DNA of 64,000 nt from contig NZ_FTMY01000017.1 in assembly GCF_900156165.1 (NCBI RefSeq), positions 62,001-126,000 on the forward strand, read 5' to 3'. Each line of letters opens with the position of its first letter. Positions within the stretch are counted from its first letter, which is position 1. Below, piece by piece: positions 46,477 through 63,147 of the stretch. Position numbers and translations under genes: made by a program. Below the pieces are notes generated by a model. The model worked only from the letters and a program-made list of their open reading frames with translations. It searched no databases and had not been told where the DNA came from. This DNA is from Pseudacidovorax sp. RU35E (GTDB taxonomy: Bacteria; Pseudomonadota; Gammaproteobacteria; Burkholderiales; Burkholderiaceae_C).

Positions 46477-46645
46477 GACGGCCTCCAGTGACCGGGCGGA
46501 ATTGCCCGGGACCGGAACCGGCACATCGCAGCGCAGCGGTCACAGGTTCGAAGACGGCCGCGAGGCCGCCAGCGTGCGAAGCACGCGCAGACCTTGACCG
46601 CGAGAACGGTGTGCAAGGATGAAGGGAACCAGCAAGCCAGCCCCC
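46477..46645 (-). repeat. Conserved hairpin leader, copy 3 (radC)
   Basis: Hairpin CCGGGC-GGAATT-GCCCGG (46492-46509), then blocks matching copy 1 (GCGCAGCGGTCACAGGTTCG, GGCCGCCAGCGTGCGAAGCA). Nearly identical to the inverted copy at 60461-60627. The following ~220 bp to the AlpA remnant hold only similarly GC-rich sequence. Confidence 0.85.
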
Positions 46646-46871
46646 GCCCGCCCCTCCCCAAGGGCGAGCGGAGCGCGCAGACCGTCGCACGGCGGCGGCC
46701 GGAGGCGTGAAGGATCGAAGCCTGACGGCCAGGACGACATCGTCGACCTGGGGCGAAGCCCGAAGAGCCTGACGGCAGGAACTGCCGGCACGCGCAGACT
46801 TGGCAACTCAGCCAGCCTCACCCCGTAAGCCAACCTCGCGATGTCAGCAAAACCCGTCACAAGGCGCAACC

Positions 46872-47088
46872 ATGCCCAACAGACAGCACAGCATCTCTTC
46901 GTCACCCGAAGCCGAGCCAGCGTTCCTCCGCCTCTCTGACGTCATCCGCATCACCGCCTTGAGCCGCTCGACCATCTACCGCCGCATCGCCGCCGGCGAG
47001 TTCCCTGCACAGGTCTCGCTGCGGACGTGCGACAGGCTGGCGCCGCGAAGCACTCCAGACTTGGCTGAACGATCCAACAGGTTTCTGA
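46872..47088 (+). pseudogene. AlpA-family regulator, frameshifted
   Basis: From ATG 46872 (MPNRQHS) the product reads FLRLSDVIRITALSRSTIYR then RIAAGEFPAQVSL, as in AlpA excisionase/activator proteins. At ~47009 the frame shifts. The correct continuation GRATGWRREALQTWLNDP lies in another frame and stops at 47088. Two bases (or one extra) at CTGCGGACG explain it. Confidence 0.82.
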
Positions 47089-47224
47089 GCCCTCGCGACA
47101 TGCGAGATACGGCGCGGCGCTTCAGGGGGCGCAGGTCCGACACGTTGCTGCGGCGGAGCGAGCGTTCGGGCCCGGGTAATCGTCAAGTGCGGTTGATGCA
47201 TCAGAGCTTGCCAACGGTGCTGCG

Positions 47225-47665
47225 CTGACTGGACCCGCAGGCCGGATCTTTCGGAGCATGGCCAAGCGCTCCGAGAAGAGGCGCTACGTGAGCGACAACA
47301 CGGTCAACAGTGCGCTGCGCACGTTGGGCTACGACAGGAAGGAGCAGATCACGGGACATGGCTTTCGCGCTACGGCCCGCACCCTCATCCGGGAACTGCT
47401 CGGCTGGGATCGGGAGATTATCGAGCAGCACCTGGCACACGTGTCGGATGAAGAGCTTGGCAGCAGCTATGACCGCACGACGCATTTCGAGCAGCTACGC
47501 CGGATGATCCGGGTGGGGGCGGATCTGCTGGACGACCTCGCTGATGGTCGAACGGCCGAGCCGACGCGCGATCTGCGCCGGCTGGATGCTTCGCCGCTGC
47601 CATGGGTGAGGAGCGGCCTGCCCCAGGGCCTTGGGGGTGCGGTGGACGTCAGGGCGGCGGCGTAG
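47225..47665 (+). pseudogene. Tyrosine integrase, C-terminal remnant
   Basis: The remnant begins at LTGPAGRIFRS and continues through RRYVSDNTVNSALRTLGYDR, GHGFRATARTLIRELLGW, HLAHVSDEELGSSYDRTT (catalytic His-x-x-Arg and Tyr) to LLDDLADG. It is closely similar to the same part of the complete integrase at 60844-62154. The N-terminal ~290 residues are missing. The frame runs on ~35 non-homologous codons. Confidence 0.85.
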
Positions 47666-47891
47666 GCGATCGGTAGCCGTCAGGATCGTCGATCCACGCT
47701 TGAAGCGCGGCACTCGGCCAAGCGGCGGCCCTGCCGCCGAGACGGACGGGTGCAGGGAAGCGGCCCTCAGAGACCCGCCTATAGACCGTCGAGCGGCTGA
47801 GCGAGGAAATCCGCATGACGTCGTGCAGGCGGTAGAAGGCCGGCGGGGCCTTGGAGGGATTCGGCTTGGGCAGGGTTTGATGGAAGAGCAT
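47649..47891 (-). CDS. AlpA-family helix-turn-helix protein
   Basis: 80 residues from ATG 47891. FYRLHDVMRISSLSRSTVYR, RVSEGRFPAPVRLGGRAAAW and SAALQAWIDDP form an intact AlpA domain. Related to the frameshifted gene at 46872-47088. Converges on the integrase remnant. It probably came with an earlier island and may regulate its excision. Confidence 0.8.
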   Translation of the reverse strand: MLFHQTLPKPNPSKAPPAFYRLHDVMRISSLSRSTVYRRVSEGRFPAPVRLGGRAAAWPSAALQAWIDDPDGYRSPTPPP

Positions 47892-48015
47892 GGCGGCACC
47901 TTGTCGAGCGATGTCGCAAGGATGCGTCCTGGGGTGCCTCATAAAAACCCAGGAGGGCGCAGTCTGTCGTATGTGGTTCAGGACCTGGATTGGTGCAAAC
48001 CTCATCCAAAATTGA

Positions 48016-48213
48016 TGCCTTATATGCTAATAATCGTGGCGAAAGCTTGCTCCTTTCCTCATGTACAAGCATTCTCCCCAGTTCATTTGATAGCATATAA
48101 AGCATAATTTTCTATCGATATTCATGCTTTATGTGCTATAAATTGTCCTGCTGAAAGTGAGGCTTGCGTTGGAGCTTTCGTCTTTCATCTTAAACACGAT
48201 AGCAAATAAGGCA
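48016..48213. promoter_or_regulatory. Four HipB-type operator boxes upstream of hipBA
   Basis: Boxes of the form TAGCAnATAAnGCA: 48016-48029 (inverted), 48091-48104, 48125-48138 (inverted, one change) and 48200-48213. The last sits directly before the hipB ATG at 48215. The 323-bp gene-free region (47892-48214) is markedly AT-rich. Confidence 0.78.
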
Positions 48214-48214
48214 T

Positions 48215-48496
48215 ATGAACACCTTGCTGGATCTCGGCCGCGCACTCGCGCGCTTGCGCAAGGAGCGTGGCATGACGCAGAAGGAACTGGCCAACCTGTG
48301 CGGCATGGGCCAGTCCACCCTTGCGCGCTTCGAGACCGGCGGCGTCGCCGAATTCGGCTCCCGCAAGTTGCTGCGCCTGCTGGAAGTTCTCGGCTACGGG
48401 ATGGACTTCGTGCCGATGAAGCGCGAATTCACGCTCGACGACGCGCTGGCGGAGCGGCAGCGCGCCTTTGAGGGCGTCGGCGGGGTTCAGCGATGA
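48215..48496 (+). CDS. hipB: HipB-like XRE antitoxin
   Basis: 93 residues. The helix-turn-helix LGRALARLRKERGMTQKELA is followed by GMGQSTLARFETGGVAEFGS and a C-terminal tail. First gene of a hipBA pair; overlaps hipA by four bases (ATGA). It should repress its own promoter through the four boxes and neutralise HipA. Confidence 0.9.
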   Translation: MNTLLDLGRALARLRKERGMTQKELANLCGMGQSTLARFETGGVAEFGSRKLLRLLEVLGYGMDFVPMKREFTLDDALAERQRAFEGVGGVQR

Positions 48497-49818
48497 AACT
48501 GCACGTCTTCGTCCACGACAGGCCGGTGGCGACCTTGGAGTCTGCCGATGGCTTCCGGCACATCATGGCCTACCACCCGGACGTGGGTCCCGAGCAGTTC
48601 GTCTCGCTGCTCATGCCGGTGCGGACCGAGTCTTACGCCTACCCCGATCTGCATCCCGTGTTCCGCATGAATCTGCCGGAAGGCTTTCTGCTGTCCATCC
48701 TGCAGGAGCAACTGGGGCCGCACGTCGGCGCATCACCACTCAACCTCTTGTCCGTAGTGGGGCGCAACGCCATTGGACGCGTCAAGGTGGCGGCTCGGGG
48801 CGCAGACCCTACACAGCCCCCTGTAGCGTTTGAACTGGGGGCCATTCTGCGCGGCGACAACTCAGAGGCGGCCTTCGTGGAACTGGTCCGCCGCTACGCC
48901 GTCTCCGGGGTGTCGGGCGTCGTACCGAAGTTCCTGTCGCCCAACACGCTGGCGGAGTATGGCAAAGGCACGCTGGCCACTGACCGCCACATCATCAAAG
49001 GCACCACGGGCAGGCTTCCGGGCGTTGCGTTGAACGAGCACTTCTGCATGGAGGTGTCGCGCCAGGCAGGGATTCCGACGGCACAGACGGAGGTGTCCGA
49101 CGATGGCCAGGCGCTTGTGGTGCACCGCTTCGATTTCGAGGACGACGGTGCCACGCGCAAGGGCATGGAAGACCTGTGCAGCCTGCTGTTGCTGCGGCCG
49201 GAAGAGAAGTACCAGTCGACTTGGGAGCGCGTGGTGGGCCGCATCAAGAATGTCGTGACCATCGCGGCGCAGCAGAACGCGGCGCTGTCGCAACTGGCGG
49301 ACCTGCTGCTGTTGACCTATGCGCTGCGCAATGCGGACTGCCACACCAAGAACATCGCATTGTTGTACTCGTCGCGCGAAAACATCGTCCTGGCGCCGGT
49401 CTACGACATGCTGACGATCACGGTCTACGACGACTACGCGAAAAATCCCCCAGGGATGCCGGTGGAGGGGCGCAGCACCTGGATGCCGGGCAAAGCGCTG
49501 GAGCGGTTTCTGCAGACGCGCTGCGGCGTGATGCCCGCCCAGGTCAAAGAGCGCACGGAGCGCATCTGTGAGGCCATCGTTCGAGTGACTCCCCAAGTGG
49601 TTGAGGCTGCAGGGCGCTACCCGGTCTTTCACGAGACAGGCAAGCGCATGCTGCATGCGTGGAACGCTGGCATGAACAGTCTGCGGCTGCAAAAGACCTG
49701 GAGCCTGCCATCGCTGCAACAAGCCATCGAGCAGGCGCGCTTTTCGGACGTGAAGCCAATCACTCCCACGCCCAGGGAAAAGATTGGACGATCTCCCTTG
49801 CTGGGGAGGCGCGGATGA
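48493..49818 (+). CDS. hipA: HipA-family serine/threonine kinase toxin
   Basis: 441 residues. Features are the N-terminal HipA subdomain (FRMNLPEGFLLSILQEQL), ATP-binding HIIKGTTGRLPGVALNEHFC, catalytic loop LRNADCHTKNIALLY (Asp and Asn intact) and the metal-binding APVYDMLTI. Homologues phosphorylate glutamyl-tRNA synthetase and cause growth arrest. Intact residues suggest an active toxin. Confidence 0.93.
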   Translation: MKLHVFVHDRPVATLESADGFRHIMAYHPDVGPEQFVSLLMPVRTESYAYPDLHPVFRMNLPEGFLLSILQEQLGPHVGASPLNLLSVVGRNAIGRVKVAARGADPTQPPVAFELGAILRGDNSEAAFVELVRRYAVSGVSGVVPKFLSPNTLAEYGKGTLATDRHIIKGTTGRLPGVALNEHFCMEVSRQAGIPTAQTEVSDDGQALVVHRFDFEDDGATRKGMEDLCSLLLLRPEEKYQSTWERVVGRIKNVVTIAAQQNAALSQLADLLLLTYALRNADCHTKNIALLYSSRENIVLAPVYDMLTITVYDDYAKNPPGMPVEGRSTWMPGKALERFLQTRCGVMPAQVKERTERICEAIVRVTPQVVEAAGRYPVFHETGKRMLHAWNAGMNSLRLQKTWSLPSLQQAIEQARFSDVKPITPTPREKIGRSPLLGRRG

Positions 49819-49999
49819 GTCGCCGATCAATCAGCCGCCGCGCGTTGAGTAGCCTGGATCCGAGGCGCACCTCGAACCTTCGCATGACGCGTGCCATCCA
49901 CGGATGGTTGCCTGTATCAAAACGTGTTCGCGTGGTACCTTCGCAGGATTACGGGGGAATTGATTCGTGAATTGAGGTCGATGTCAACGAGAACGACAA

Positions 50000-52900
50000 G
50001 TGGAGAACATCATATCTAGCCGACTCAAAGCCGACGAGCGGCCATTTATTGCCGTGACGAAAGACGACGACTGGCGCCTCTTCAATCCGAAGATCGACGG
50101 CGACGGGGCTGAGTATGTGGATCTTCGAAGGTTTTCTAAACTTTCGAAAGAGGATGCTGTCGAGAAGCTCTCGGAATATGCGAACTCACTTGACACCACC
50201 ACTTTACCCGCCTTGAAAGCAAGGGTCGCGACGACCTTGCTGCGTGACCTGATTGCCATCGGGTGGGAAACCCATACGACTGCGCACCATATCTATGTAC
50301 GGCCGCCCAAGCACATGGATCCCGCAGCGCGCAAACACTTGATTCGCCAACAACTTCTTTTCGGCCGCGACGATCAACTTCTGGAAGATTCCCACCGCCG
50401 ATTCATCTATTCGATGGAGCGGCCGTCCAAGCATTCCTCAAGCAGGCCGGTGACTGACTTGATCGCTGACGGCAGGAGATTGTCGGAACAACTGAGGCCT
50501 ATTGCCAATGTGCCACTGCACGAGCGCCAGGCGCTTCTGCAAAGTATCTGCCGTCCCTATGCACAACTGGTCAGCGACGAACGGGATGAATTCACGAATC
50601 TGAGATTGATCGACGTGTGGCGCTACTTCCGCCACAGTTGGAGCACACGATATCGGTCCAGCCCCGGTCGCAATCTGTTCTATCTGATTCGCGATGCCGC
50701 GCAACCTAATCATCCGGTGATCGGGATCACGGCACTTGGAAACACCGTCATGCAACTGACGCCGCGGGATCGGGCGCTTGGTTGGACTGTCGATGGACTG
50801 TTGGGCCTGATCGAACAAGGCGTGGTGTCTGATGTTGAAGTCCTGCGCGCCTTTCGCGAACGCCTCGAAGAGGACTTCGACCAGATATATCGGGAGGACC
50901 TGCCCGTTGATCGCCGCATTGATCACAGCGTAGACGATGAAACCCTGAGCAGATTGGCGGTGATCGAACAGGATGCCCTGAGGGATAGAGAAGATGCGTT
51001 GAAGGGCGACGAAGAAGGTGCTCCTAAGAGGCCAGATGACTTGACGCCAAAGCGGCTTCTGGAACTGACCAAAACACCCTTGTATCGCTCAAAACGTGCG
51101 CGTGCAGCACGGGAAATTCTGCGAGCCTACCGGACCATCGCGATCTGGCATGCAAGCTTGCGCGATCTTGCAGCGACTGACCATGGGGCCTGGGCGCTCA
51201 ACCTCGTCATCAAGCAGTTAAAGAAGCGATTCTCCGCGACGAGCATGATGGAACTCACCGTGTGTGGTGCCGTCGCTCCGTACAACCATCTTCTGGGTGG
51301 GAAACTGGTGTGCATGATGATGATGAGTCCGCGTGTGGTCAACGACTACCGTGAACGCTACGGCGGCACTGTCAGCATCATTGCCAGCCAGATGGCAGGC
51401 CGTCCCGTCACCAAGGATCCGGACTTGGCCTTTCTGGGGACGACGAGTCTCTACACCGATCATTCTTCTCAGTACAACAGAGTCAAACTTCCGAAGGGTA
51501 CGCTGGAAGGCCAGACGGCTGCCATCTCGTATGAGCAACTGGGAAGGACCGAGGGCTTTGGATCCCCCAACCTCTCCACCGAGACCGAACTTGGCCTGGC
51601 ACAGATCGCGGAACAGGCCAGCGGCTTTCGAAACGTCAACTTTGTATTTGGAGAAGGGCAAAGTCCGAAACTGCGCCAACTGCGCGAAGGCTTTACCCAT
51701 CTCGGACTCAATCAAACCAACCTTCTTCAGCATGGCGCGCCGCGCATCATCTATGGCGTTCCACTTGTGACGAACCTGAAGCGAGTTCTCCTCGGCGTTG
51801 ACGCTGAGTCTTGCTATGGCATCGATCCCCAGACGGTGGGAGCCGAGGAGAAGATTGCAGATCATTGGATGTCAAGGTGGCTGGCTTCACGCCTGGACCA
51901 CTCACCGGCGTTGGATGCGGTGGCTCACTCAACGCCTCTAACGGAGCGCGTCTCACGGCTAATTCCAGATCGACCAGAACCTCGCAGCACGCAGAGGCAA
52001 CTCATGCTCAAACCCGCCATTGGAGAGAGGAACGACATGCAAAGCGACACCAAGGCGGACGATCGTCTGCAGTTCATCCGCCTGTTGTATCGCAATGAGA
52101 GTGCGTTCAGCGATCACGTCAGCATCGGACGGCTCAAAGAACTGAACATTAAGACGAATCTGGAAGAAGTGGTTCGGAAGGTTGTTCGAACGGGTGGGTC
52201 CGTGGTTATTACGGGAAACGCTGGCGACGGAAAGACGCATGCCATCCTTTTGATGAAGAAGGATTTGAAGGATGCTGACGTGGTCACTGATGCCAGCGAA
52301 CTCTCGTCCGCGGAGATCGTTCGACGCTGGCAAGCAGCTCGCGACGAGCAAAAGCCATTCTGCATTGCCATCAACGAAGGTCCCTTGGTGGATCTGGTGC
52401 GCGAGTTTCGCGGGAAGCATCGGTGGCTGGAGGACATCCGGGCTCAACTGCTGCGCCTGGTTACCTACAAGCCTCTGGAGGCCTCATCACCCGACGATGA
52501 AGAAAGTTGGAAACCTCAGAAAGGTGAAACAGTCATTCTTGACCTGAGTCATCGCCGAGTTTTGTCTCCAGATCTTGCGGGGGAGATCATCGACAAACTG
52601 ACAGACGACCACTGGTACGAGGCTTGTGCTTCTGAAGAGAACTCGGTCATCAACTACAACCGAAGGATGCTTCGATCACCCGTGCCGCGGGCGCGAATGG
52701 TGAAGCTTCTGACAACAGTGGGGCGCGCAGGCGCGAAGATCACATTCCGCGAGGCACTTGCCTTCGTCTCCTACTGCATCTTTTCCGGGAAATCGCGCGA
52801 AGAGCTGAAAGAGGCCGGCTACGGGGAATTCTCCAGGTACTACTGGAACGCTTTCGAGGGGGAGGGAGCCATCTTCGAACTGCTGAATCGGGGAATCGAT

Positions 52901-53650
52901 CCCATGAAACAGACCAACCCACAAGTTGACGAGCATCTGTGGCGCGGAACGATCGACCCCAGCGACTTTGCAGGGCACGCGAAGTTGCCGGTCCTGCAGA
53001 GAAACCTCGATGAGGTGGCGGAAAAAGAGCAACGCAACTTTGCCGACGAGTTCACAGCACTCAAGCGCCGCTGGTACTTCGAACATGTCAATGGGCAACT
53101 GTTTGACTTTTCAGATGCCAACAAACTGTTCGCGGAGTTGCAAGATACGTCGATCGCCATGGCGATCCGACTGAGTCGCCTGATCTCCCTCATCAACCGT
53201 TGGTGGAACAGGGGTGGTGACACCAAATCAGATGCGCTCCGACTCTGGACTCGCCTTTCATACCAGCCGCGCACGCGCAGCCAGGCCATGGTCTCTGGTC
53301 TGGCAGTCAATCGAAACCGCCTCCGGCTCTACAAGCCTGAATTGGCTCCGGTCTTGCGCAAGGCGTTTGGCGAACAACCGGCAAGCCACCTTCTGCTGGC
53401 TTCGGCGGATGATCCGAGGTTTGCTCGCCTTGTCGTGGATCCGGAACTTCTGGAAGGCTTGATTCATGGATCGCTTGCGGATGGACAGAACGAAGTCGCG
53501 AGACGACTGGGACAGTTCAACGACACGCTTTCTCAATACGGTGAAAAAAGCCCCGACGTGCGTACCGTTGATGTTGTCGACCCACAGAGTGAACTGCGCA
53601 CCACCGTAGTTGTGGATCTGATCAACCGTCGCTTCGACTCCGCCACCTGA
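50000..53650 (+). CDS. DruA-like DUF4338 domain fused to a DptF-like P-loop NTPase
   Basis: 1216 residues in one frame from GTG 50000. The GTG is the first usable start after a stop at 49973, but has only a weak ribosome site. Residues ~200-520 match DUF4338 as in Druantia DruA: VWRYFRHSWSTRYRSSPGRN, LIRDAAQPNHPVIGITALGN, WHASLRDLAATDHGAWALNL and GGTVSIIASQMAGRPV. Residues ~680-1216 resemble DptF, the NTPase of phosphorothioation-dependent restriction: Walker A VVITGNAGDGKTHAI at ~735-750. An internal ATG at 52037 (residue 680) is preceded by GGAGAGAGG, so a separate DptF-like protein may also be made. Lower GC than the ICE backbone. Next gene 8 bp downstream. Confidence 0.78.
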   Translation: MENIISSRLKADERPFIAVTKDDDWRLFNPKIDGDGAEYVDLRRFSKLSKEDAVEKLSEYANSLDTTTLPALKARVATTLLRDLIAIGWETHTTAHHIYVRPPKHMDPAARKHLIRQQLLFGRDDQLLEDSHRRFIYSMERPSKHSSSRPVTDLIADGRRLSEQLRPIANVPLHERQALLQSICRPYAQLVSDERDEFTNLRLIDVWRYFRHSWSTRYRSSPGRNLFYLIRDAAQPNHPVIGITALGNTVMQLTPRDRALGWTVDGLLGLIEQGVVSDVEVLRAFRERLEEDFDQIYREDLPVDRRIDHSVDDETLSRLAVIEQDALRDREDALKGDEEGAPKRPDDLTPKRLLELTKTPLYRSKRARAAREILRAYRTIAIWHASLRDLAATDHGAWALNLVIKQLKKRFSATSMMELTVCGAVAPYNHLLGGKLVCMMMMSPRVVNDYRERYGGTVSIIASQMAGRPVTKDPDLAFLGTTSLYTDHSSQYNRVKLPKGTLEGQTAAISYEQLGRTEGFGSPNLSTETELGLAQIAEQASGFRNVNFVFGEGQSPKLRQLREGFTHLGLNQTNLLQHGAPRIIYGVPLVTNLKRVLLGVDAESCYGIDPQTVGAEEKIADHWMSRWLASRLDHSPALDAVAHSTPLTERVSRLIPDRPEPRSTQRQLMLKPAIGERNDMQSDTKADDRLQFIRLLYRNESAFSDHVSIGRLKELNIKTNLEEVVRKVVRTGGSVVITGNAGDGKTHAILLMKKDLKDADVVTDASELSSAEIVRRWQAARDEQKPFCIAINEGPLVDLVREFRGKHRWLEDIRAQLLRLVTYKPLEASSPDDEESWKPQKGETVILDLSHRRVLSPDLAGEIIDKLTDDHWYEACASEENSVINYNRRMLRSPVPRARMVKLLTTVGRAGAKITFREALAFVSYCIFSGKSREELKEAGYGEFSRYYWNAFEGEGAIFELLNRGIDPMKQTNPQVDEHLWRGTIDPSDFAGHAKLPVLQRNLDEVAEKEQRNFADEFTALKRRWYFEHVNGQLFDFSDANKLFAELQDTSIAMAIRLSRLISLINRWWNRGGDTKSDALRLWTRLSYQPRTRSQAMVSGLAVNRNRLRLYKPELAPVLRKAFGEQPASHLLLASADDPRFARLVVDPELLEGLIHGSLADGQNEVARRLGQFNDTLSQYGEKSPDVRTVDVVDPQSELRTTVVVDLINRRFDSAT

Positions 53651-53658
53651 GAGAAATC

Positions 53659-55146
53659 ATGAGTACACAACTCCGCAAGGTGATCACTGATGAGGTTCAG
53701 CGCAGGCATGGCTATAAGGTGATGGAAGCCAAGATCAAGCCTGTCCACATCGCCAATGCACTGATGCGCGCGGAACACCAAGGTGTTGGAAGAATGTCGG
53801 TGCTCGAACAGTTGTTCGAAGCGACACTTCCGAAAAACAGCCTCGACAAACGCGTGGCCGCTGTTCGCTCCCTCGTGGATGGCCAGCGTGACCGCTGGGG
53901 CGCGCTGGGAGAGGCCGCGGATCTGAAGTCATCTGCACTCATGACCAAGGTGCTCCCGCTCATTCGTACCTTGTTGGGTGCAGACGGCGCGGTTTTTGGG
54001 AAGTCACCGGAGTTCTCATCCTTTTCGTCGCCGACGGCGCTGACCGTAACGGGGGATCCATCGGATGATGGAGCCGGCCTGTTCATACATCGCCTGTGGG
54101 GTGGGCACGACTCCAGCCAGAGATTGGAGATTCTCAATCTGTTATCGCGCCTGACCAATCCGGACAAGAATCCCGCCGACATGGATGATCTCTCGGCTCT
54201 TCTCTCTCCACTGGTTGACTCCACGCGTAAGAAACTGGTCTCGCCGGTAGACAGTGAGGATCTCAAGAGCGGCTATTCGCCAGTCGAGTTGGCTTTGCGT
54301 GATGCGGCAGACAAACTGGCGGCCTACGAGCGGAAACTCAATCCCAACCCCATTGCAAGCTTGCAGCGTGTCATTCTTCTCGCGGCACTCTCCATGTTCA
54401 TGCACGCCGCGAGTAGACCTCGGGAGCGTGCAGGCAGGCCGGAGCGGGTCCTTCTACTGGACGCTTCGGGCGATCATTCGTCGCCCACGGTGACGGCTAG
54501 TACCCGCTGCATCTCGCAATTGATCGGAGATGCACGTTTGTATATGGCATCAGTCGTGGCCGATCTTCTCGCCGCTCAATCCTCCAGTTGGCATAGCGAT
54601 CCGGTTTCCGCGCTCAATGGACTCCTCCAGGATGCCGGGTTCGCGCCAGTGGATGATTCAAGTTCAATCGCGCGTCGATTGCAGGACATTTCTCAAGAGC
54701 ACGACGATCCTGAGGAGATTGCTCTGGAGGTGGCGGAAGAACTGATTCGGCAAGCGGAGGGATCTTCGAGTCGAGGGTTGGATGGATATCTGCGACTTCT
54801 GGGAATCCGATCCGGATTTCTATATCCCGCGCAAAAGAACCCGAACAAGAGGCTGAATCCTGCAGACCGGACACTTGAGGTGTTGGTCGCCTCAACAATC
54901 GATGTCGATCAACCTCCGTTGGAGTATCGCGACTTTCTGGATTTGCTTAGGCAAAAGTGGGCCATCGTGGTTGGCGGTCGCACGGAGGACAGGGCGTTGC
55001 TGGCGGAGATCGGTGCGACGGTGCCCGCGCGCGCCTTGAGCGAGAACAGCGAACGCTTCCTAAGTCGATTGGAATCTATCGGCCTTGCTCGCCGTCTTGC
55101 CGACAGCGTCGCGGTTGTCGGCTTGCTGGAGGCAAACCATGAGTGA
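53659..55146 (+). CDS. DptG-like protein of the defence operon
   Basis: 495 residues, start 8 bp after the upstream stop. No catalytic motif is visible. The product is soluble and helical, with a C-terminal segment (LLRQKWAIVVGGRTEDRALL, ERFLSRLESIGLARRLADSV) of the style seen in DptG/SspG proteins, the middle partner of DptFGH. Assignment rests on position between DptF-like and DptH-like genes as much as on sequence. The stop lies inside the next gene (8-base overlap). Confidence 0.6.
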   Translation: MSTQLRKVITDEVQRRHGYKVMEAKIKPVHIANALMRAEHQGVGRMSVLEQLFEATLPKNSLDKRVAAVRSLVDGQRDRWGALGEAADLKSSALMTKVLPLIRTLLGADGAVFGKSPEFSSFSSPTALTVTGDPSDDGAGLFIHRLWGGHDSSQRLEILNLLSRLTNPDKNPADMDDLSALLSPLVDSTRKKLVSPVDSEDLKSGYSPVELALRDAADKLAAYERKLNPNPIASLQRVILLAALSMFMHAASRPRERAGRPERVLLLDASGDHSSPTVTASTRCISQLIGDARLYMASVVADLLAAQSSSWHSDPVSALNGLLQDAGFAPVDDSSSIARRLQDISQEHDDPEEIALEVAEELIRQAEGSSSRGLDGYLRLLGIRSGFLYPAQKNPNKRLNPADRTLEVLVASTIDVDQPPLEYRDFLDLLRQKWAIVVGGRTEDRALLAEIGATVPARALSENSERFLSRLESIGLARRLADSVAVVGLLEANHE

Positions 55147-58100
55147 GATCGCGATGAACGTCAACCGCCATATTGCAGACCTCTTGCTGGCTGAGTTCGA
55201 AGCGGCAGTAACACGAGAGGATTTTGGCGTTGTGACGCAGGATCCCGCGGGATTTGATCGTGACCACTTCCTGGCGGCGCTCCCGGACCTTTTCACAAGA
55301 ATGAAAGGACGATTGCGCATCTCGCTCGTCGGTCAGCACGATGCAGTAACTGGATTCCGTTCGCTGTACCCGAAGTTCGCAGAATTTCTGGCTTCGGACG
55401 AAGAGACCGCCGTTCAGTGGCGCAACCAAAAACTCAAGACCATCGTGGTGCTCGCAGATGGACCTTTGAGCAGGCAGGCTTCCTTGAAGGACTTTCGTGT
55501 CCTGAGCGAAAACGCGTTGATTGCGCGCCTGTGTGATGAGCAGCGAGACAAGGCCGAAGTGCTATGGCTTCGGACGCTGTGGGATGCGCTGAAGTCCAGC
55601 CGTGGACCAAGCCTGTCATTACGTGCAATCGCCAATTACGCCGATGTCCTCAAAGGGTTCAGTCCCTTTGAGCGTTCCGTGAGGGCTCCAGCGGCACTGC
55701 ACGCACTCGGGCTGTTTCCCGACTCCCATCTCGCTGATGAATCCAGTGAAGGGCGGGTGGTGCGACGGCTGAAGTCCAATGCTGAGACCCTGGCCACGGT
55801 GAGCAATGGCGCTCCCGATGACTGGGATCGTATCGCCGTCTTCTGTCGCGCGCTTCCAAAGGGCGACAAGGGAAAATTCAACGCGATCCGCAGACGTCTG
55901 CGGTCCATCAATGATCGAACGGCCGAATCATTGATCGACATCGAGTTGGCGGATGTCATGACGCTATGGCGGGGGAAAATCTCACCAGCCCACCCCGGAA
56001 CTGAAATTGGAGGTGCGAAGAAAGACGGAGGGAAGGTTCCGGTCGAGTCTGTGGTTGCTGGACTTCTGCTGGACGGCGGCAACGAGAAACTGTCTGACCT
56101 CGCTGAGCAAGTCACCGTGTTGGCAGAGCAGGCGGAGAATGACCAGACCGTGGGAGAGGATGAACCACTCGGCGGAACTGAGGGCAAGGGCGACAGCGGT
56201 GCGCTGCCGACGCAGACCGTTACCAGCGTGAATGCCAACGTCATCGCGCTGGTCAAGTCCAGGTCGACCCATGCGGAGTGGGGTGGTGTGATCGACATCG
56301 AGTCTGATCGTATAGATGCGCTTATGGAGGTGGCCGCGTTCAAGGCCTGGCAACCGTTCGTCTTCCAGGAGTTCCAGCAGTGGCTCTCAGAGTTTGTCGA
56401 AGCGGAATTGGCGCCTGCCGCCTGTCTTGATCTTGCGATTTCACTGGCGAGCGCGAGAGGACGGCTCCTGCCGGTGGCCGCGGAACTCACGGTCTCGCCG
56501 GTTGCTGTTCTGGCCGGTCGCCCCGATGCTCTGAATGCTGCGATGGAGTATCTGCAGGCCTACGACCAATTGCTCAAGCAACTTCAGGCGGCATTCCAGG
56601 AGATGTACTCCCAGGCCATGGACGAAGCTGAGCGCGTCGTGCATTGGCTGCTGTCGATGGAACTGTATGTCTATCGAAGGGAGGGCATTCCAGAGGTTCT
56701 TCTATCGCCGCTTCACCCCCTGAATCTATGGCGCAGCGTCGCGATCGTCCGTGACTTGCAAGCACTTGGCGGGCGGTTGTCCGAGACGGAGCGATCAACG
56801 CTCATTGCGGCGTCGGCAGAGGATCTTCAACTGCTCAATGTGTTGATCCTTCCCAAGATCGAATCTGTTACCGCACAGCCATCACTGCTGGGTCATGCCG
56901 GCGCCGTGGCTCATCTCCCTCTCTTCAAGGAGGCGCCTAGAGGCGTCCTGGAGCCGGACGGCTTGAAGTCGGTCAGTTTCCTGGCCGCTCTCGCCGCACA
57001 ATTGCGGCCGTTCGCGAGACCTGGCTTGCAGGTGGTCTTCGTCAATGTTCCGCGTCCTGCACGGTTCATCGAGGTGCTCCTTGATGTGCTGGATCTGGAC
57101 AACCAGGGCACCGAAGATACTTTTTGGGGCCTTCACATTCGTTTGCGCTATACCTCGGATGACACGCGAGGGTGGACCGGCGAGTTGGAGGACATGGATG
57201 ATCAGTTGAAAGATCGCATCAGGGCGGGCCAGGAGCGAGGGCTTGTCAGCCTGTCCGTTGATCCAGAAGTGAAGAAGTGGCCTCAGGTCATCGAAGAGGT
57301 TCGAAAGCTGCCGGCCCATCTCGGTGTCGTATTTGATCCGTTCGAGGTTCGCACTGCGCTTGTAGCGCGAGCTGGCCTGCACGATCTGAGCCCGTGGATG
57401 CCCAGTTGCGAATACCGCTACAACAAGTTGAAGAAGCAGATCACGATCATTCCGGTGGCGGAAGAAGAGGTATTTGCCACCTACTTCGCCACTGCGACCC
57501 TGGTCCATCGCGAACTGCGCCAGACCACGGCGACCCACCAACCGCAAGTTGCGTCCGTCAAGAGTTGGCTGGACCAGCTGGCAGAAAGCTGCACTTGGAC
57601 CGTCGTTGCCGATCCGCACCGTGTGCTTGTCCCCCGGCTGGGAGACGCAGAGGTTGTTGATCGCCGAATCGAAGGTGCTCGCCAGTTGACGACGTTTGGG
57701 CGCGACCTAAGCCCCTTCATTCGCAGACTGGATCAACAACTGCGCAAGACGCATTTCGTGGCGGATCCGAATACGCTGGAAGAACTGGTTCGCGATTTGG
57801 TGGCCATGGAACCCAACGGCATCCTGGGTTTGGTCGGAGGTGACAAGTCAAAGCATGTCAAAGGGGCGCTTGGCAAACTCATTGCCATGCGCTGGTATAG
57901 GCGGCGCGAGCCCAGTGGCTTGGCCGTCAGCTTGGACACCCAGAATGCCCGTAGGTGGCTGACCGCGGGCGGTCACTCCAATGAAAAGGCCGACTTGATC
58001 GGGTTACGCGAAGAAAACGGCGAGTTGGTCATCGACGTCATCGAAGTCAAGACGCACGATGAGGGCACGCCGTACTCCGTCAAGGACGGCATTGTCGCGG

Positions 58101-59830
58101 GTCATGCGGTGGATCAGGTAGTGGCGACCCTGCATGCTCTGGCCGAGGTGTTTGGTGGTCCCAACCTTTCGCCTCTGGCGAAGCCACGACGGGAGGTCGT
58201 TCGAGAGCATCTGTATACCGCACTCCTACGCGATCTGGATGCTGAGTACATTGAACGGTGGCATGGCTTGCTGCACGATCTGTTCAACGGCAGTATCTCC
58301 GTCAAACTCGCCGCCCGCATTGTTCATGTGCAATTGGCGAGCGTGGTGACCACTGAGTCCTTGAGCGTCACGACAAGGCTTGGTATCCCAGTCGAGATCA
58401 ACACATTGGCGGCCACCGATGTCGGTCTGGCGTTGACCGCGACGAAGATCACGAAGGAGGAACTTCCTTTGTCAGGTCGAGGTCATGGCAACGCAGGAGG
58501 AGGTGCTTCAAAAGGTCTTGAGCCCAGCGTGGTTTTCCAACGCTTGACCAAGCCCGTCGATACTTCCGAAGGACTGCCAGCAGAGATCGAGACACCTGCG
58601 GCCGGTCCGAACACGGCTTCCATGGCTAGGCAAAGCACGGCTGGCGACGCAGCGGAGGTGGTCCCTTCCAATCCAGGATCGGCCTCAGAGAATGCTCCGT
58701 CGGGACTTCTGGAAGTTGAACTGGGCTCGGAGACGGCGAACTCAAAATCCGTGGTCCGCTGGAACCCTGGAAAGCAAAGCAACGGGTTCTTCTTGATTCT
58801 TGGATCGTCCGGTTCAGGCAAGACCGAAGCCTTGAAGGTGGTGGGCAAGAACATCAGCGATTTCGGCGTGCCAGTGCTGGTGCTCGATTTCCACGGCGAT
58901 GTGAAGTTTCCTGGCCTGCGTTCAGTACTGCTCTCGTCCGGGACTTCGAGCACTGCGGGTGTAAACCCGATGGAACTGGACTCGCAGAGTGCTGAGGAGA
59001 CGGGTTTGTATGACCAGCGCAAGGTGCTGCGCGACATGATTCGCAACGCGGTGCCTGCGCTCGGTCACCGCCAGAACAGCATTCTGCGTGAGGCACTGGA
59101 AGACGCGTACTCTGCTGCGGGTTTCGACGACTCTGACCCTGGGACATGGCGCAATGCTCCACCGACCTTTGCTGACGTCGAGCGGATCTTGGAGGACTGG
59201 GCCGCCGACGATGGCAGGAAGAGTCAGCGATCCGCGATTGAGGGTTGTCTCGCCGCGGTTCGTGAAATATTTGAGCATCCGATATTCCATCGTAGCGAAC
59301 ATGTATCGGCGGAGGACATTCTGTCCTCGAATCTCCGTCTCGACCTAAGTAAACTGACGGATGAGGTCCGCTACATCACAGCCGAGACCCTTCTTCGGAA
59401 ACTGTTCAGAGTGCTTCGCCTTCGAGGGCCCATCCCCGTCCAGCCCAGCGATGACAGGCAGCGCTTCCGGCTTTTCGTCATCATCGACGAGGCCAAAATT
59501 CTGAGCACCGGTGGCGGTGATCCAGATGCACCAGATCGAATCTTGAACCTTCTGTTCACAGAAGCCCGAAAGTTTGGCCTGGGGATGATCCTTGCATCGC
59601 AGATGAGTGATCACTTTGGATCGGAAGTGAAGGCCAATGCTGCCACTTGGTTGGTGCTCAAGCCGATGGATGTCAAGGAGGCGAAGAAGAACGCGCCAAA
59701 CGTCCATATGGACCCGGAAGCGCTGACCAGTCTAAAGGGACGAGGTGATGGGTATCTTAGGGACCGATCCTCGCCACGGGCCCGGCGCATACAGGTCAAG
59801 CCATTGCCTGCGATGTCGGATGACCAATAG
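55139..59830 (+). CDS. DptH/HerA-like ATPase with PD-(D/E)xK-type nuclease motif
   Basis: 1563 residues from ATG 55139, seven bases after GGAGG. The N-terminal ~900 residues are a helical/mixed region without recognised motifs, including a low-complexity acidic stretch at ~340-375. Residues ~930-1060 contain EKADLIGLREENGELVIDVI followed by EVK, a restriction-endonuclease-fold D...ExK core. The C-terminal ~1190-1530 is a HerA/FtsK-like ATPase: Walker A LGSSGSGKTEALKVV at ~1222, DFHGDVKFPG, Walker B FRLFVIIDEAKIL and the arginine-finger/sensor-type GLGMILASQMSDHF. This layout matches the large subunit of DptFGH-type restriction. Last gene of the operon. Confidence 0.78.
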   Translation: MSEIAMNVNRHIADLLLAEFEAAVTREDFGVVTQDPAGFDRDHFLAALPDLFTRMKGRLRISLVGQHDAVTGFRSLYPKFAEFLASDEETAVQWRNQKLKTIVVLADGPLSRQASLKDFRVLSENALIARLCDEQRDKAEVLWLRTLWDALKSSRGPSLSLRAIANYADVLKGFSPFERSVRAPAALHALGLFPDSHLADESSEGRVVRRLKSNAETLATVSNGAPDDWDRIAVFCRALPKGDKGKFNAIRRRLRSINDRTAESLIDIELADVMTLWRGKISPAHPGTEIGGAKKDGGKVPVESVVAGLLLDGGNEKLSDLAEQVTVLAEQAENDQTVGEDEPLGGTEGKGDSGALPTQTVTSVNANVIALVKSRSTHAEWGGVIDIESDRIDALMEVAAFKAWQPFVFQEFQQWLSEFVEAELAPAACLDLAISLASARGRLLPVAAELTVSPVAVLAGRPDALNAAMEYLQAYDQLLKQLQAAFQEMYSQAMDEAERVVHWLLSMELYVYRREGIPEVLLSPLHPLNLWRSVAIVRDLQALGGRLSETERSTLIAASAEDLQLLNVLILPKIESVTAQPSLLGHAGAVAHLPLFKEAPRGVLEPDGLKSVSFLAALAAQLRPFARPGLQVVFVNVPRPARFIEVLLDVLDLDNQGTEDTFWGLHIRLRYTSDDTRGWTGELEDMDDQLKDRIRAGQERGLVSLSVDPEVKKWPQVIEEVRKLPAHLGVVFDPFEVRTALVARAGLHDLSPWMPSCEYRYNKLKKQITIIPVAEEEVFATYFATATLVHRELRQTTATHQPQVASVKSWLDQLAESCTWTVVADPHRVLVPRLGDAEVVDRRIEGARQLTTFGRDLSPFIRRLDQQLRKTHFVADPNTLEELVRDLVAMEPNGILGLVGGDKSKHVKGALGKLIAMRWYRRREPSGLAVSLDTQNARRWLTAGGHSNEKADLIGLREENGELVIDVIEVKTHDEGTPYSVKDGIVAGHAVDQVVATLHALAEVFGGPNLSPLAKPRREVVREHLYTALLRDLDAEYIERWHGLLHDLFNGSISVKLAARIVHVQLASVVTTESLSVTTRLGIPVEINTLAATDVGLALTATKITKEELPLSGRGHGNAGGGASKGLEPSVVFQRLTKPVDTSEGLPAEIETPAAGPNTASMARQSTAGDAAEVVPSNPGSASENAPSGLLEVELGSETANSKSVVRWNPGKQSNGFFLILGSSGSGKTEALKVVGKNISDFGVPVLVLDFHGDVKFPGLRSVLLSSGTSSTAGVNPMELDSQSAEETGLYDQRKVLRDMIRNAVPALGHRQNSILREALEDAYSAAGFDDSDPGTWRNAPPTFADVERILEDWAADDGRKSQRSAIEGCLAAVREIFEHPIFHRSEHVSAEDILSSNLRLDLSKLTDEVRYITAETLLRKLFRVLRLRGPIPVQPSDDRQRFRLFVIIDEAKILSTGGGDPDAPDRILNLLFTEARKFGLGMILASQMSDHFGSEVKANAATWLVLKPMDVKEAKKNAPNVHMDPEALTSLKGRGDGYLRDRSSPRARRIQVKPLPAMSDDQ

Positions 59831-59927
59831 TCAACACTTTGTTGGTGCGTGCGACCAATGTTATGGAGAGGCGATCGCGAGGCGGAATGGTTATCTGTGA
59901 ACTGGTGTCGCGTGAAGGAAACCGGAG

Positions 59928-60254
59928 ATGAAGTACACGACATGTGGTTTTGCTGTTGATGAACTTGAATTTTTGCAACACGTTCCGTCTCGTGTGTTGG
60001 TCGCGGCTTCAAGCGGCAAACTTGATCTCAATCAGTTGGCACGAGAAGAACTAGCTCAACGTGGATTGAATCAGCAAGGAATATGGGTTGGTTCTTCGAA
60101 GGCGCAGTTAGCCATGGATGACACCCAGTGCCAAGACGCACGCCGTGCGAATTCGATGCTCGACGCCTTGCTGAATTCGGGCGCCTCGGGACGCAAAATG
60201 GCTATTGCATTGATGCTGCTGGCAGATGCGCAAAAGTCGACACAGCGCGCTTGA
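59928..60254 (+). CDS. Small conserved accessory protein
   Basis: 108 residues from ATG 59928 after GGAG. VLVAASSGKLDLNQLAREEL then AQRGLNQQGIWVGSSKA resembles a short conserved ICE/plasmid protein (a 'LDL..LA..ELA.RGLD..G.WVGF' pattern known to me from such elements); function unknown. It lies after the defence operon and before the fourth leader copy, so it probably belongs to the ICE backbone. Confidence 0.6.
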   Translation: MKYTTCGFAVDELEFLQHVPSRVLVAASSGKLDLNQLAREELAQRGLNQQGIWVGSSKAQLAMDDTQCQDARRANSMLDALLNSGASGRKMAIALMLLADAQKSTQRA

Positions 60255-60321
60255 GACATGTTGATGGAGAGCATCCGAAGAAGTCGCTTTCCGTTCATTG
60301 TGAACAACAATTCTTGTATCC

Positions 60322-60340
60322 CCCGGCATGTCATGCCGGG
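60322..60340. terminator. Perfect 9-bp hairpin CCCGGCATG-T-CATGCCGGG
   Basis: A 19-bp palindrome 67 bp after the stop at 60254, at the junction with GC-rich backbone sequence. No T-run follows, so it may be a structural or binding site rather than a terminator. Confidence 0.4.
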
Positions 60341-60460
60341 CCGAGCTATACGTGCGTTGCATCGAGCCGCCATGGCGTCTCGCCCCTCCGACTCCTATCG
60401 CTGACGCCTCGCCCTCGATGAGGGCTGCGCGCTGGGCTTGCCAATACAGGGGGCGTGGTG

Positions 60461-60627
60461 GGGGGCTGGCTTGCTGTTCCCTTCAGGGTGTCGCCCCGTT
60501 CTCGCGTTAAAGGCCTGCGCGCACGCTGTGCGCTGGCGTCCTTGCGGCCGTCTTCGAGCCTTGAGCGCTGCGCTGCGGCGTGCCGGTTCCGGTCTCGGGC
60601 AATCCCGCCCGATCGCTGGAGCCGACC
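60461..60627 (+). repeat. Conserved hairpin leader, copy 4 (inverted relative to copies 1-3)
   Basis: Blocks GGCTGGCTTGCTGTTCCCTT, CGCGCACGCTGTGCGCTGGC and GCGGCCGTCTTCGAGCC mirror the radC leader. The hairpin CGGGC-AATCCC-GCCCG (60596-60611) again lies just before an RBS (TGGAG) and ATG 60628. Confidence 0.82.
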
Positions 60628-60795
60628 ATGTCGCACGATCTCTTCTCTTCCCTGGATTCCTTCGCTACCATTACCGCCTGCTCGGCTGAACTCAAACTGT
60701 TCTACGCCCTCTCAGACGACATGGAAGCGATATTGCCTCTGCGAACACATTGGCAACGATCAACTCGCCGAGGTAGTTCGAGACAAGCTCTATAG
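60628..60795 (+). pseudogene. Truncated leader-driven ORF (55 aa)
   Basis: MSHDLFSSLDSFATITACSA parallels the start of the element-borne radC product (MAHDLFSSFHSLSTVVPAAL), then diverges and ends at 60795. Probably the cut-off start of a RadC-like or other leading-region gene at the integrase-proximal end. Confidence 0.55.
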
Positions 60796-60843
60796 TTTCA
60801 GCCTGGATGCCCGCATAGCAAAGGCCCCTATATAAGCGACGCA

Positions 60844-62154
60844 TCAGGCGCGCGGGGCTGAGTGATTTTGTGTCCTCACGAACTGCAGCACATTTTCTCC
60901 GTCCTGCACAGGCATCCTTCCGGCCTCCAGATCGTCCAGGAAATCGGCCCACTGCTGCACCATCGTCTTGCGCTGCACCAGAAAGGTCGTGCGGTCGTAA
61001 CTGCCGCCTAGTTCCTCGTCCGACACATGCGCCAGATGGCGCTCGATAACGTCGGGCGCCCATCCGAGGTACTCCCGGATCATGGTCCGGGCAGTGGCCC
61101 GGAAACCATGACCTGTGATCTGCTCCTTGGTGTCGTAGCCCATGCTGCGCAGCGCGGCATTGATGGTGTTGTCGCTGATGTAGCGGCTCTTCTCCGAACG
61201 GCGCGACATGCTGCGAAAGACCGGCCCGATCGGACCGGTCAACGGAAACAGATCCCGCAGGATCTCCATTGCCTGGCGCGGCAGCGGCACCAAATGCGCC
61301 GGTGTGCGGCTGTCGCGCTTCTGCCATTCGCGCAACTTCATCTTCTCAGGCGGACAGCGCCACAACTCATCCTCAAGACGGATGTCCTCCCATGCGGCGA
61401 GACGCAACTGGCCAGGGCGTTGGAAGATCATCGGCGCCAGCCGCAGGGCGCAGCGCGTGATGAAAGAACCGTTGTAGGAGCGGATGTCGCGCAACAGTTG
61501 CCCGAGTTGCACGGGATCGGTGATGGCTGCGTAGTGCCGGCTTCGCGGCGCCGGCAGGCCACCGGTGTTCTTGTTGACGAAGCTCCCAGCCGGCTCCAGA
61601 GCACCGACGTCGACCGCGTACTGGTACACGTGCTGTACTGCCTCTCGTACGCGCTGAGCCGTCTCCAAGTTGCCGCGGTCCTTGATCCGATGCAGGCATC
61701 GCACAATCTCGGTCGGAGCGATTTTCTCGATGGGCCGGTCACCAACCCAGGGGAAGACGTGGATCTCTAGGTGTCGGATGACTTTGTCGGCGTAACCGCT
61801 CGACCATTGCCTGTCCTTCTTCGCATTGGCGACCCAGGCACGCGCCAGCAGAGCAAAGGTGTTCAGCGCCGCAACACGCTCCTGCTCCTCGCGTTGCCGG
61901 CGAACCTCCTTGAGGTCCTGTCCACCCGCGCGCAGACTGCTGGCCTCATAGGCTTTGGCGCGCGCCTGCGCCAGCGTCACCGCCGGGTACGGCCCCAGCC
62001 CGAGCTTGACGGTCTTCCCGTCCTTGGCGTAGCGGTAGATCCAGGCCTTCCCGCTGCTGCGCACGCGCAAGAACAGGTTGTCGCCATCATTGAGGAAGAA
62101 CTCCCTCGGCCCAGGCTTGGTCGCCTTGATTTGCGTCTCGCTCAGCAGTCCCAT
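60844..62154 (-). CDS. int: Tyrosine-type integrase (P4-like) of the element
   Basis: 436 residues. The N-terminal DUF4102/arm-binding domain (GLLSETQIKATKPGPREFFL, WIYRYAKDGKTVKLGLG) is followed by a core-binding region and the catalytic domain with the conserved arginine region (RCALRLAPMIFQRPGQLRLA), GHGFRATARTMIREYLGW, HLAHVSDEELGGSYDRTT and nucleophile Tyr. It catalyses site-specific integration into the neighbouring tRNA-Phe 3' end and, with an excisionase, excision. Confidence 0.95.
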   Translation of the reverse strand: MGLLSETQIKATKPGPREFFLNDGDNLFLRVRSSGKAWIYRYAKDGKTVKLGLGPYPAVTLAQARAKAYEASSLRAGGQDLKEVRRQREEQERVAALNTFALLARAWVANAKKDRQWSSGYADKVIRHLEIHVFPWVGDRPIEKIAPTEIVRCLHRIKDRGNLETAQRVREAVQHVYQYAVDVGALEPAGSFVNKNTGGLPAPRSRHYAAITDPVQLGQLLRDIRSYNGSFITRCALRLAPMIFQRPGQLRLAAWEDIRLEDELWRCPPEKMKLREWQKRDSRTPAHLVPLPRQAMEILRDLFPLTGPIGPVFRSMSRRSEKSRYISDNTINAALRSMGYDTKEQITGHGFRATARTMIREYLGWAPDVIERHLAHVSDEELGGSYDRTTFLVQRKTMVQQWADFLDDLEAGRMPVQDGENVLQFVRTQNHSAPRA

Positions 62155-62289
62155 CTCGTACCCCGTACCCCCGGAAGGTGTTTTTCACGAGATCACTCTA
62201 GGGTACGGCTCGGGGTACGGGCAAACGCGGGATGTAACGGGACGACTTGGAACGTTGTGGGCGACATTTCGGAGCCAAGTCCTTGTCAC

Positions 62290-62324
62290 ACAAACAAAAA
62301 CGCCTAGTCCGGAGGGACTAGGCG
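62290..62324 (-). terminator. Rho-independent terminator of tRNA-Phe
   Basis: CGCCTAGTCC-GGAG-GGACTAGGCG is a perfect 10-bp stem. On the minus strand it is followed by TTTTTGTTTG. It begins 9 bp after the tRNA 3' end. Confidence 0.88.
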
Positions 62325-62332
62325 TAGGTGTT

Positions 62333-62408
62333 TGGTGGCCTGGGGCGGAATCGAACCACCGACACGCGGATTTTCAATCCGCTGCTCTACCAACTGAGCT
62401 ACCGGGCC
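62333..62408 (-). tRNA. tRNA-Phe (GAA)
   Basis: 76 nt including encoded CCA. The anticodon arm GCGGATTGAAAATCCGC has GAA in the loop; D-arm AGCTCAGTTGGTAGAGC and T-arm GTTCGATTC are intact. The acceptor stem has one mismatch (C5 against A68). The 3' end faces the integrase gene and is the likely attachment site. Confidence 0.96.
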
Positions 62409-62448
62409 TTAGAGGCTTGCCTGCGTTGAATATCAGGCGAGCCTCAGA

Positions 62449-63147
62449 TTATAGAGCAGCTTTCTTCCCTTTGGACAGGTCCACGCCAAGTTGTTTGAGT
62501 TTTCTGTAGAGGTGGGTCCGTTCCAGCCCCGTCTTCTCGGCCACGCGGGTCATGGAGCCACTCTCCATGGCCAGATGGAACTCGAAATAGGCCTTCTCGA
62601 AAGCGTCGCGGACCTCGCGCAGCGGCCGGTCGAGGTCGAAGGTCTGCCGCGCCTGGGGACCGGGCTCCGGCGTTGCCGGATGCAGCACGGCCAGGATCGG
62701 CGGAACTGGCGGCTGTGGCGCCACGGCAGGGGATGACGGGGCGGAGGGAGGCACCACGCCAAGCGAGGGCGGCCGGCGCCCCTCGTCGCGCATCAAGCCC
62801 TTCTCGACTTCCTTGAGCAGCTTCTGCAGGGTGATCGGCTTTTCGAGGAACGCGGCGGCGCCGATGCGTGTGGCCTCGACCGCTGTGTCGATGGTGGCAT
62901 GTCCGCTCATCATGATGACGGGCATGTTGAGCAGACCCGCGGCCGACCACTCCTTGAGCAGTGTCACCCCATCGGTGTCGGGCATCCAGATGTCGAGCAG
63001 CACCAAGTCGGGACGCTCGCGTTGCCGTGCCGCACGCGCCGCCGAGGCGTTCTCCGCCAGTTCGACGTTGTGCCCCTCGTCATTGAGGATTTCGAACAGC
63101 AGGTCGCGAATGCCCAGTTCGTCGTCGACCACCAGGATGTTTGCCAT
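62449..63147 (-). CDS. Response regulator with Fis-type HTH, lacking AAA+ domain (NtrX-like)
   Basis: 232 residues from ATG 63147. The receiver domain at 1-120 has phosphoacceptor Asp in LVLLDIWMPDTDG, conserved VVDDE and the Lys in FLEKPI. A Pro/Ala-rich linker (~125-170) is followed by a C-terminal Fis-like HTH (VAEKTGLERTHLYRKLKQLG). The sigma-54 AAA+ domain of classic NtrX is missing, as in other Burkholderiales homologues I recall. Downstream of and co-directional with the NtrY-like kinase gene. Confidence 0.88.
   Translation of the reverse strand: MANILVVDDELGIRDLLFEILNDEGHNVELAENASAARAARQRERPDLVLLDIWMPDTDGVTLLKEWSAAGLLNMPVIMMSGHATIDTAVEATRIGAAAFLEKPITLQKLLKEVEKGLMRDEGRRPPSLGVVPPSAPSSPAVAPQPPVPPILAVLHPATPEPGPQARQTFDLDRPLREVRDAFEKAYFEFHLAMESGSMTRVAEKTGLERTHLYRKLKQLGVDLSKGKKAAL

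Follow-up and report, generated by a model that had tools for sequence, protein, structure and literature searches.

The DNA analysed here is a stretch of 64,000 nt from Pseudacidovorax sp. RU35E (NZ_FTMY01000017.1, positions 62,001-126,000), hereafter named the window. Positions refer to the window unless they are marked C5, the contig that carries it. Three intact co-oriented (+) genes were found at 50000-59830, with an 8-nt gap after the first and an 8-nt overlap before the third. The first encodes DruA fused to an F protein, and the other two encode G and H proteins of the DndFGH/SspFGH kind, an arrangement (A-F-G-H) that would constitute a stand-alone DNA-restriction defence. The operon comprises the following features:

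50000..53650 (+), druA-F fusion gene, an open reading frame (ORF) of 1216 amino acids (aa) with DruA and SspF profiles
50117..51955 (+), DruA domain, residues 40-652, predicted GNAT-like fold with a helical insert at about residues 255-414
51278..51307 (+), PYNHLLGGKL, residues 427-436, at the position of the GNAT acyl-CoA pyrophosphate loop, assigned by eye
52067..53647 (+), F core, an SspF/DndF-type P-loop protein, residues 690-1216, Walker A GNAGDGKT from residue 739
53659..55146 (+), G gene, 495 aa, C-terminal half SspG/MAD7-like
55139..59830 (+), H gene, a DndH-like nuclease-translocase of 1563 aa from the ATG at 55139
56945..57706 (+), methyltransferase-like Rossmann fold, H residues 603-856, GxG loop not seen by eye
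57992..58051 (+), PD-(D/E)XK nuclease motif, H residues 952-971, with D952, E969 and K971
58679..59827 (+), HerA-type motor, H residues 1181-1563, Walker A GSSGSGKT from residue 1222, DUF87

A DUF4338-like region and a P-loop NTPase in one frame had been proposed in a sequence-only reading of this locus, and this was borne out by profile searches. The N-terminal part of the fusion protein matched PF14236 (DUF4338/DruA; 1.6e-30) and the PADLOC DruA profile PDLC00001 (498 bits over residues 40-652), and the F part, with its GNAGDGKT motif, matched the SspF profile (41.8 bits). The middle protein, which had been described as motif-poor, is not featureless: the C-terminal half of G matched SspG (58 bits) and, weakly, MAD7 (29 bits; cut-off 410). 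The third protein had been taken for a very large HerA-like ATPase with a nuclease core, and it is one. Besides the DUF87/HerA motor, its C-terminus matched the DndH model (86 bits), the D, E and K of the nuclease were identical in 52/52 rows (51 homologues plus the window), and the motif was present in 12/12 rows of a wider set, window included. The methyltransferase-like domain of H is probably inactive. In the adjacency and order of F, G and H, the P-loop and profile of F, the restriction endonuclease motif and HerA motor of H, and its methyltransferase-like domain, the operon agrees with DndFGH/SspFGH. The earlier label of DptFGH-like was thus right as to the family, the nearer profiles being those of SspF and SspG and the motor being of DndH type, but none of the NCBIfam Dpt equivalogs TIGR03236-03238 was listed for them at E <= 1. 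In a PDB sequence search DruA-F and G gave no match, and H matched the motor part of DptH and HerA entries plus, weakly, a-iTHR-201. Foldseek gave no match against the PDB at E <= 0.001 for either of two structure models.

Comparison with a copy of the operon in a 23.7-kb Variovorax locus (L001) revealed proportions of synonymous differences (pS) of 0.71-0.76, at which synonymous sites are saturated, and proportions of nonsynonymous differences (pN) of only 0.08-0.10 in all three genes. This indicates purifying selection on the three genes and rules out chance ORFs. In the database the fusion gene appears as entry P0042, an 801-aa protein on a contig of matching length; the start chosen is apparently internal, and the annotation thereby hides most of DruA. 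Near residue 876 of the fusion (52625-52650) the F part of the window lacks two of three cysteines that are present in L001, P0005, P0021 and P0098, where they perhaps form an optional Zn insert; this three-cysteine pattern was not found in L006, L034 (the locus of genome G434) or L008.

In the DruA domain, the predicted fold of which is GNAT-like, residues C422, G423, P427, Y428, G434, K435 and L436 were identical in 46/46 rows of alignment A2. Against PHROGs the fusion protein was unmatched, and three other DruA proteins gave weak matches of unknown function. A structure model of DruA (m66b0363976a1) matched predicted giant-virus proteins from Faunusvirus (E 4e-8) and Yasminevirus (4.5e-7). 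A DruA tree of 24 rows, which took in 15 of the 120 listed fused proteins, did not place the DruA proteins with FGH in one clade (two changes), with ultrafast bootstrap values of 85-90 at the deep forks; hence, a single origin of the pairing is neither supported nor ruled out. The four rows without FGH formed one clade, which grouped with haloarchaeal DruA.

The association of DruA with F was assessed in several collections. A search with the fusion protein found 438 homologues, 120 of them listed; these were mostly full-length (~1200 aa) and came from Burkholderia, Pseudomonas aeruginosa, Roseomonas, Sorangium and others, several under the NCBI name 'Druantia anti-phage system protein DruA'. 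A search with the F part found 178 homologues, and 119 of the 120 listed carry PF14236, candidates having been limited to 0.55-1.75 x 1216 aa, a length filter that excludes stand-alone F proteins. The lone listed homologue without PF14236 is a 673-aa protein on a 9-kb contig. Among 72,556 plasmid records, the F of the window and that of Haloplanus, used as separate queries, retrieved the same seven records (five from haloarchaea, two from Hymenobacter), and DruA adjoins F in 7/7. The fusion protein itself matched 14 plasmid records, of which contexts were studied for 10; H8, H12, H13 and H14 were matches to the DruA part only. No near-identical plasmid copies of the operon were found. A phage-borne system was rejected, no match being obtained among 50,697 phage records. 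Within the F lineage, DruA looks constant.

In genome samples the fusion protein matched in 3 of 399 genomes of the family, and a long DruA model in 6 of 398 genomes of the phylum (own genome, G000, included in both) and in 0/14 control genomes. Three of these six (G000, G400 and G434) carry DruA-F fusions; in G468 DruA stands alone next to a different ATPase, and the DruA proteins of G637 and G751 are short. A genome-contig scan with a single query sequence gave one locus only, and in E. coli the first gene was unmatched at the DNA level.

The order A-F-G-H, the recurrence of which had been put forward as a check, was found in 11 loci on 10 records (window, L001, L034, L005, L006, L007, L009, L013, L041, L008 and L042). 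DruA and F are separate genes in the haloarchaeal loci (L005, L006, L007, L013, L009 and L041) and in Hymenobacter HDW8 (L042/L043), and fused in H. canadensis (L008). L005, L006 and L007 are cassettes 92-98% identical, and were therefore counted as one lineage; L009 and L041 are two copies on one Halobaculum litoreum plasmid (NZ_CP126157.1). Not all loci are whole. An IS3 element separates G from fragments of H in L008, H is split over two ORFs in L041, L009 and L042, DruA and F are also broken in L009, and G is seemingly broken in L041. The G400 locus is compatible with A-F-G-H, divided between two contigs, and the copy of G387 runs off its contig. With the G protein of G434 as query, five plasmid records were retrieved, all from the haloarchaeal A-F-G-H set. 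The H core (residue 5 to 1067 at most) was matched in the five haloarchaea and Hymenobacter HDW8 among the 30 listed of 63 plasmid records, the remaining 24 listed matches covering the motor only. Linkage was also gauged indirectly, by longest contigs of exactly the same length in a DruA-F cluster and a listed H cluster; this applied to 46 of the 120 DruA-F clusters listed, and to 38 of 72 when only contigs of at least 12 kb were counted.

The motor of H proved to be variable. It is of HerA type in the window and L001 and of FtsK type in L006 and Hymenobacter HDW8 (PF01580, 118 and 108 bits), which the motors of L013, L041 and L008 resemble; the archaeal motor also matched SspH (228 bits). In G434 (L034:7214-11965, -) it is a RuvB-like AAA+ ATPase (RuvB_N 37 bits, AAA 51 bits, RuvB_C 20 bits, the latter under its cut-off), seen in this one genome only. 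In the 1259-aa H of G400 (L046:1149-4928, +), again a single genome, no motor domain was detected by Pfam. This variation (HerA, FtsK, RuvB-like or none found) around a constant nuclease reveals the fixed part of H.

In the haloarchaeal loci L005-L007, DruE lies divergently upstream of A-F-G-H (1568 bits in L006), accompanied by a gene with weak resemblance to DruD and by another whose CoiA_N match falls just below the cut-off, and in L013 a DruE relative lies convergently downstream. DruE is adjacent in four of the six haloarchaeal A-F-G-H loci, none being seen in L009 and L041. Among six proteins scanned at the window (operon and neighbours), DruB, DruC, DruD and DruE were not found. G000 contains a separate Druantia II/IV-like locus (L037:3683-14742, -) with DruE2 (1478 bits), a DruF-like 1016-aa protein (97 bits) and a NERD-helicase; a working link between this locus and the operon is not supported, the locus sitting on another contig (C19). 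In G400 a DruE relative (190 bits) likewise lies on a contig other than that of DruA-F. The DruE1 model gave matches in 12/14 control genomes at E <= 0.001 and in 5/14 at 1e-10, which indicates that it picks up helicases generally. Matches at E <= 0.001 reached only 26 bits in G215 and 22 bits in G387, and there was no match in G434 or G468 at E <= 1e-10.

Phosphorothioation (PT) was represented by the DndC model TIGR03183, searched at E <= 0.01; SspD is the equivalent of DndC (PMC10853773). No match was obtained in the DruA-F genomes G000, G215, G434 and G400, nor in G468 (DruA alone), whereas in 14 named control genomes the model gave matches in six, none of them above its cut-off. G215 and G434, which have no DndC and no clear DruE, seemingly do without both. 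In E. coli lacking PT, SspFGH on its own harms the DNA and the growth of the cells (PMC8092258), and PT-less carriers of FGH would therefore need some other restraint, for which DruA is the obvious candidate and a methyl mark another possibility. PT modification genes are reported not to be required for DndFGH, which has been argued to be standalone (PMC10853773).

The operon lies on a mobile element, next to these features:

59928..60254 (+), small ORF directly downstream of H, the first 185 bp kept beside H in L001 (72%)
60844..62154 (-), tyrosine integrase of the element (PF13356, PF22022, PF00589)
62333..62408 (-), tRNA-Phe, the attachment site, 23 bp of its 3' end (62331-62353) being repeated

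An exact 23-bp copy of the tRNA-Phe 3' end is present to the left of the window at C5:55953-55975 (E 4.8e-8 in that stretch). The repeat would bound a 68-kb element resembling an integrative and conjugative element (ICE), covering the window from its start to 62353. TrbL, TrbE/VirB4, TrbI, coupling-protein and integrase genes are carried by this element. In the congeners G071 and G255 the positions corresponding to about C5:45189 and to C5:124321, the latter on the tRNA-Phe side, adjoin directly on the chromosome, and in G177, G320 and G378 a related integrase occupies this tRNA; the operon is absent from all five. In the Variovorax locus L001 it occurs at the same tRNA with its orientation relative to the integrase reversed, which indicates that it moves as a cassette. 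The low-GC setting beside hipBA and the ICE-like surroundings, as described from the sequence alone, were confirmed: GC is 0.56-0.59 over about 50000-60000 as against 0.60-0.73 in 2-kb windows from 1 to 48000, and hipBA-like genes, encoding a HipB-like helix-turn-helix (HTH) protein and HipA (PF07804, PF13657), lie at 48215-49818. A role of hipBA as part of the system is not supported, these genes being outside the segments that match between L001 and the window. An Rfam scan of 46000-62500 revealed the tRNA only. The segment 47240-47538 is 74% identical, inverted, to the integrase gene at 60929-61226 and is a remnant of another integrase, and a 744-bp direct repeat (96.6% identical) was found at 3941-4684 and 7787-8530.

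We read the operon, with moderate confidence, as a stand-alone DNA-restriction defence of the DndFGH/SspFGH kind, in a distinct lineage in which DruA would be the constant fourth part and provide the licensing input. Judged from its sequence, it is a real, conserved and probably active operon of restriction type; PT-independent restriction is the most likely mode, and defence is the best reading of its role on the ICE-like element. What the sequences show directly is the gene order, the domains, the purifying selection, the conserved nuclease residues, an F that in almost all relatives seen is joined to DruA or has it as a neighbour, and the lack of DndC in four of five DruA-F genomes; the assembly of a complex, the cutting of DNA, defence against phages or plasmids, and licensing by DruA are inferred. 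In the proposed mechanism, G and the N-terminal parts of H would touch the invading DNA, H would move along it by means of its ATPase motor, and the PD-(D/E)XK nuclease would cut or nick it. F, the nucleotide-binding P-loop protein, would gate H, and DruA would give the recognition or licensing input, a role that belongs to PT in the experimentally studied FGH systems.

Several points weigh against this interpretation. Long DruA proteins without FGH occur beside GHKL-type ATPase relatives in Leisingera, Paracoccus, Roseivivax and G468, indicating that DruA plugs into more than one effector set; in Leisingera and Paracoccus, DruE, a NERD helicase and a gene resembling DruD weakly are present as well. 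The off-contig DruE proteins of G000 and G400 could act in trans. Of the PT gene families DndC was the one searched, and not SspB, SspC, DndB, DndD or DndE, nor methylases, and a DndC-like PAPS reductase (130 bits; cut-off 290) is present in G387, the fifth of the DruA-F genomes. In that genome two PAPS reductases, a UDG-family gene and a DpdA-like gene (L031:9683-16691, +) lie ~1-8 kb upstream of the truncated DruA-F, and may form a DNA-modification cluster. A 2026 review lists Druantia under DNA methylation (PMC12904381), and the role proposed in print for DUF4338 on DndF is that of a co-effector, not a trigger (PMC10853773).

This last proposal is the likeliest of the alternatives. DUF4338 was placed, as a GNAT domain, among the N-terminal fusions of DndF by Rakesh, Aravind and Krishnan (2024; PMC10853773), other DndF proteins carrying HEPN, NERD or kinase domains in the same place, and a co-effector role was proposed. 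Accordingly worded for this operon, FGH alone would sense and restrict, and DruA would be an optional back-up effector on F, a suicidal GNAT acting on host molecules. The GNAT-like model of DruA is consistent with this. However, DruA does not look optional, given its presence in the 7/7 plasmid records and in 119 of the 120 listed F homologues, and its retention in haloarchaea and Hymenobacter HDW8, where it has a gene to itself. We consider the back-up role possible, albeit on the unlikely side.

It is less probable, although still worth weighing, that the operon is cargo of the element directed against rival plasmids or ICEs rather than phages. Its place in a 68-kb element with conjugation genes, and the resemblance of its HerA motor to plasmid-encoded ATPases (63 records, 19 of them typed as conjugative), would fit such a function; both are compatible with phage defence too. 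We think it improbable that DruA is a Mom-like acyltransferase that marks host DNA, FGH cutting the unmarked DNA and base modification replacing PT. In that case A-F-G-H would be a restriction-modification system in which the GNAT of DruA acylates self DNA, and the archaeal DruA would serve both FGH and DruE, a scheme to which we give the same low credence. Most doubtful is a continued reliance of FGH on PT, methyl or another mark made by genes elsewhere in the cell, for which the PAPS-reductase and DpdA-like genes of G387 and the methylation listed for Druantia (PMC12904381) speak, whereas the lack of the DndC family in G000, G215, G434 and G400, methylases not having been searched, speaks against it.

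Under the preferred reading, that of a restriction operon licensed by DruA, Druantia and Dnd/Ssp, two major defence families, would be tied through one shared protein, DruA, and a natural FGH restriction module would seemingly live without PT. Two matters thus become testable: the job of DruA, and how FGH spares the host without a PT mark. No experiments on the DruA-F-G-H lineage were found in the open-licence literature.

Among the known systems, MADS shares with the operon weak matches only (G to MAD7 with 29 bits, H to MAD8 with 60 bits). Membership was rejected, MAD7 being far under its cut-off of 410 and the only other match being one of 15 bits to mad1 on the HipB-like HTH protein. Druantia type I (DruABCDE) has DruA in common with the operon, and DruE adjoins A-F-G-H on haloarchaeal plasmids; the window differs in lacking DruB, DruC, DruD and DruE among the proteins scanned, and L036, a type I locus, has a short DruA of 430 aa next to DruD and DruE. 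The PT-based SspFGH system of Vibrio anguillarum (PMC8092258) is similar in that F and G match SspF and SspG and the archaeal H motor matches SspH. It differs from the present lineage, in which four of five DruA-F genomes have no DndC-family gene, DruA sits on F, and the motor in the window is HerA.

The closest relative is the DndFGH family of PMC10853773, in which the DUF4338 fusion, the three-gene module, the capture of HerA or FtsK by the nuclease protein H, the standalone mode and archaeal DndFGH are all described. The claim of the sequence-only reading that no described system joins DruA with DptFGH was therefore wrong, the fusion having been listed there in 2024 and many such proteins being named DruA by NCBI. 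Its claim of a distinct system held in part: the fusion was already in print, but the operon belongs to a lineage of its own, in which DruA is also a separate gene in archaea. The main text of that paper contains neither 'DruA' nor 'RuvB', and its supplements may list split DruA/F forms. In the broad DndF family of that paper DruA turns up occasionally, as one variable domain among several; in the lineage described here it is apparently constant, it is a separate gene beside DruE in archaea, and one H motor is RuvB-like. The present analysis thus adds that DruA is apparently constant, that in archaea it occurs split from F and next to DruE, that four of five genomes lack DndC, and that the motor can be RuvB-like.
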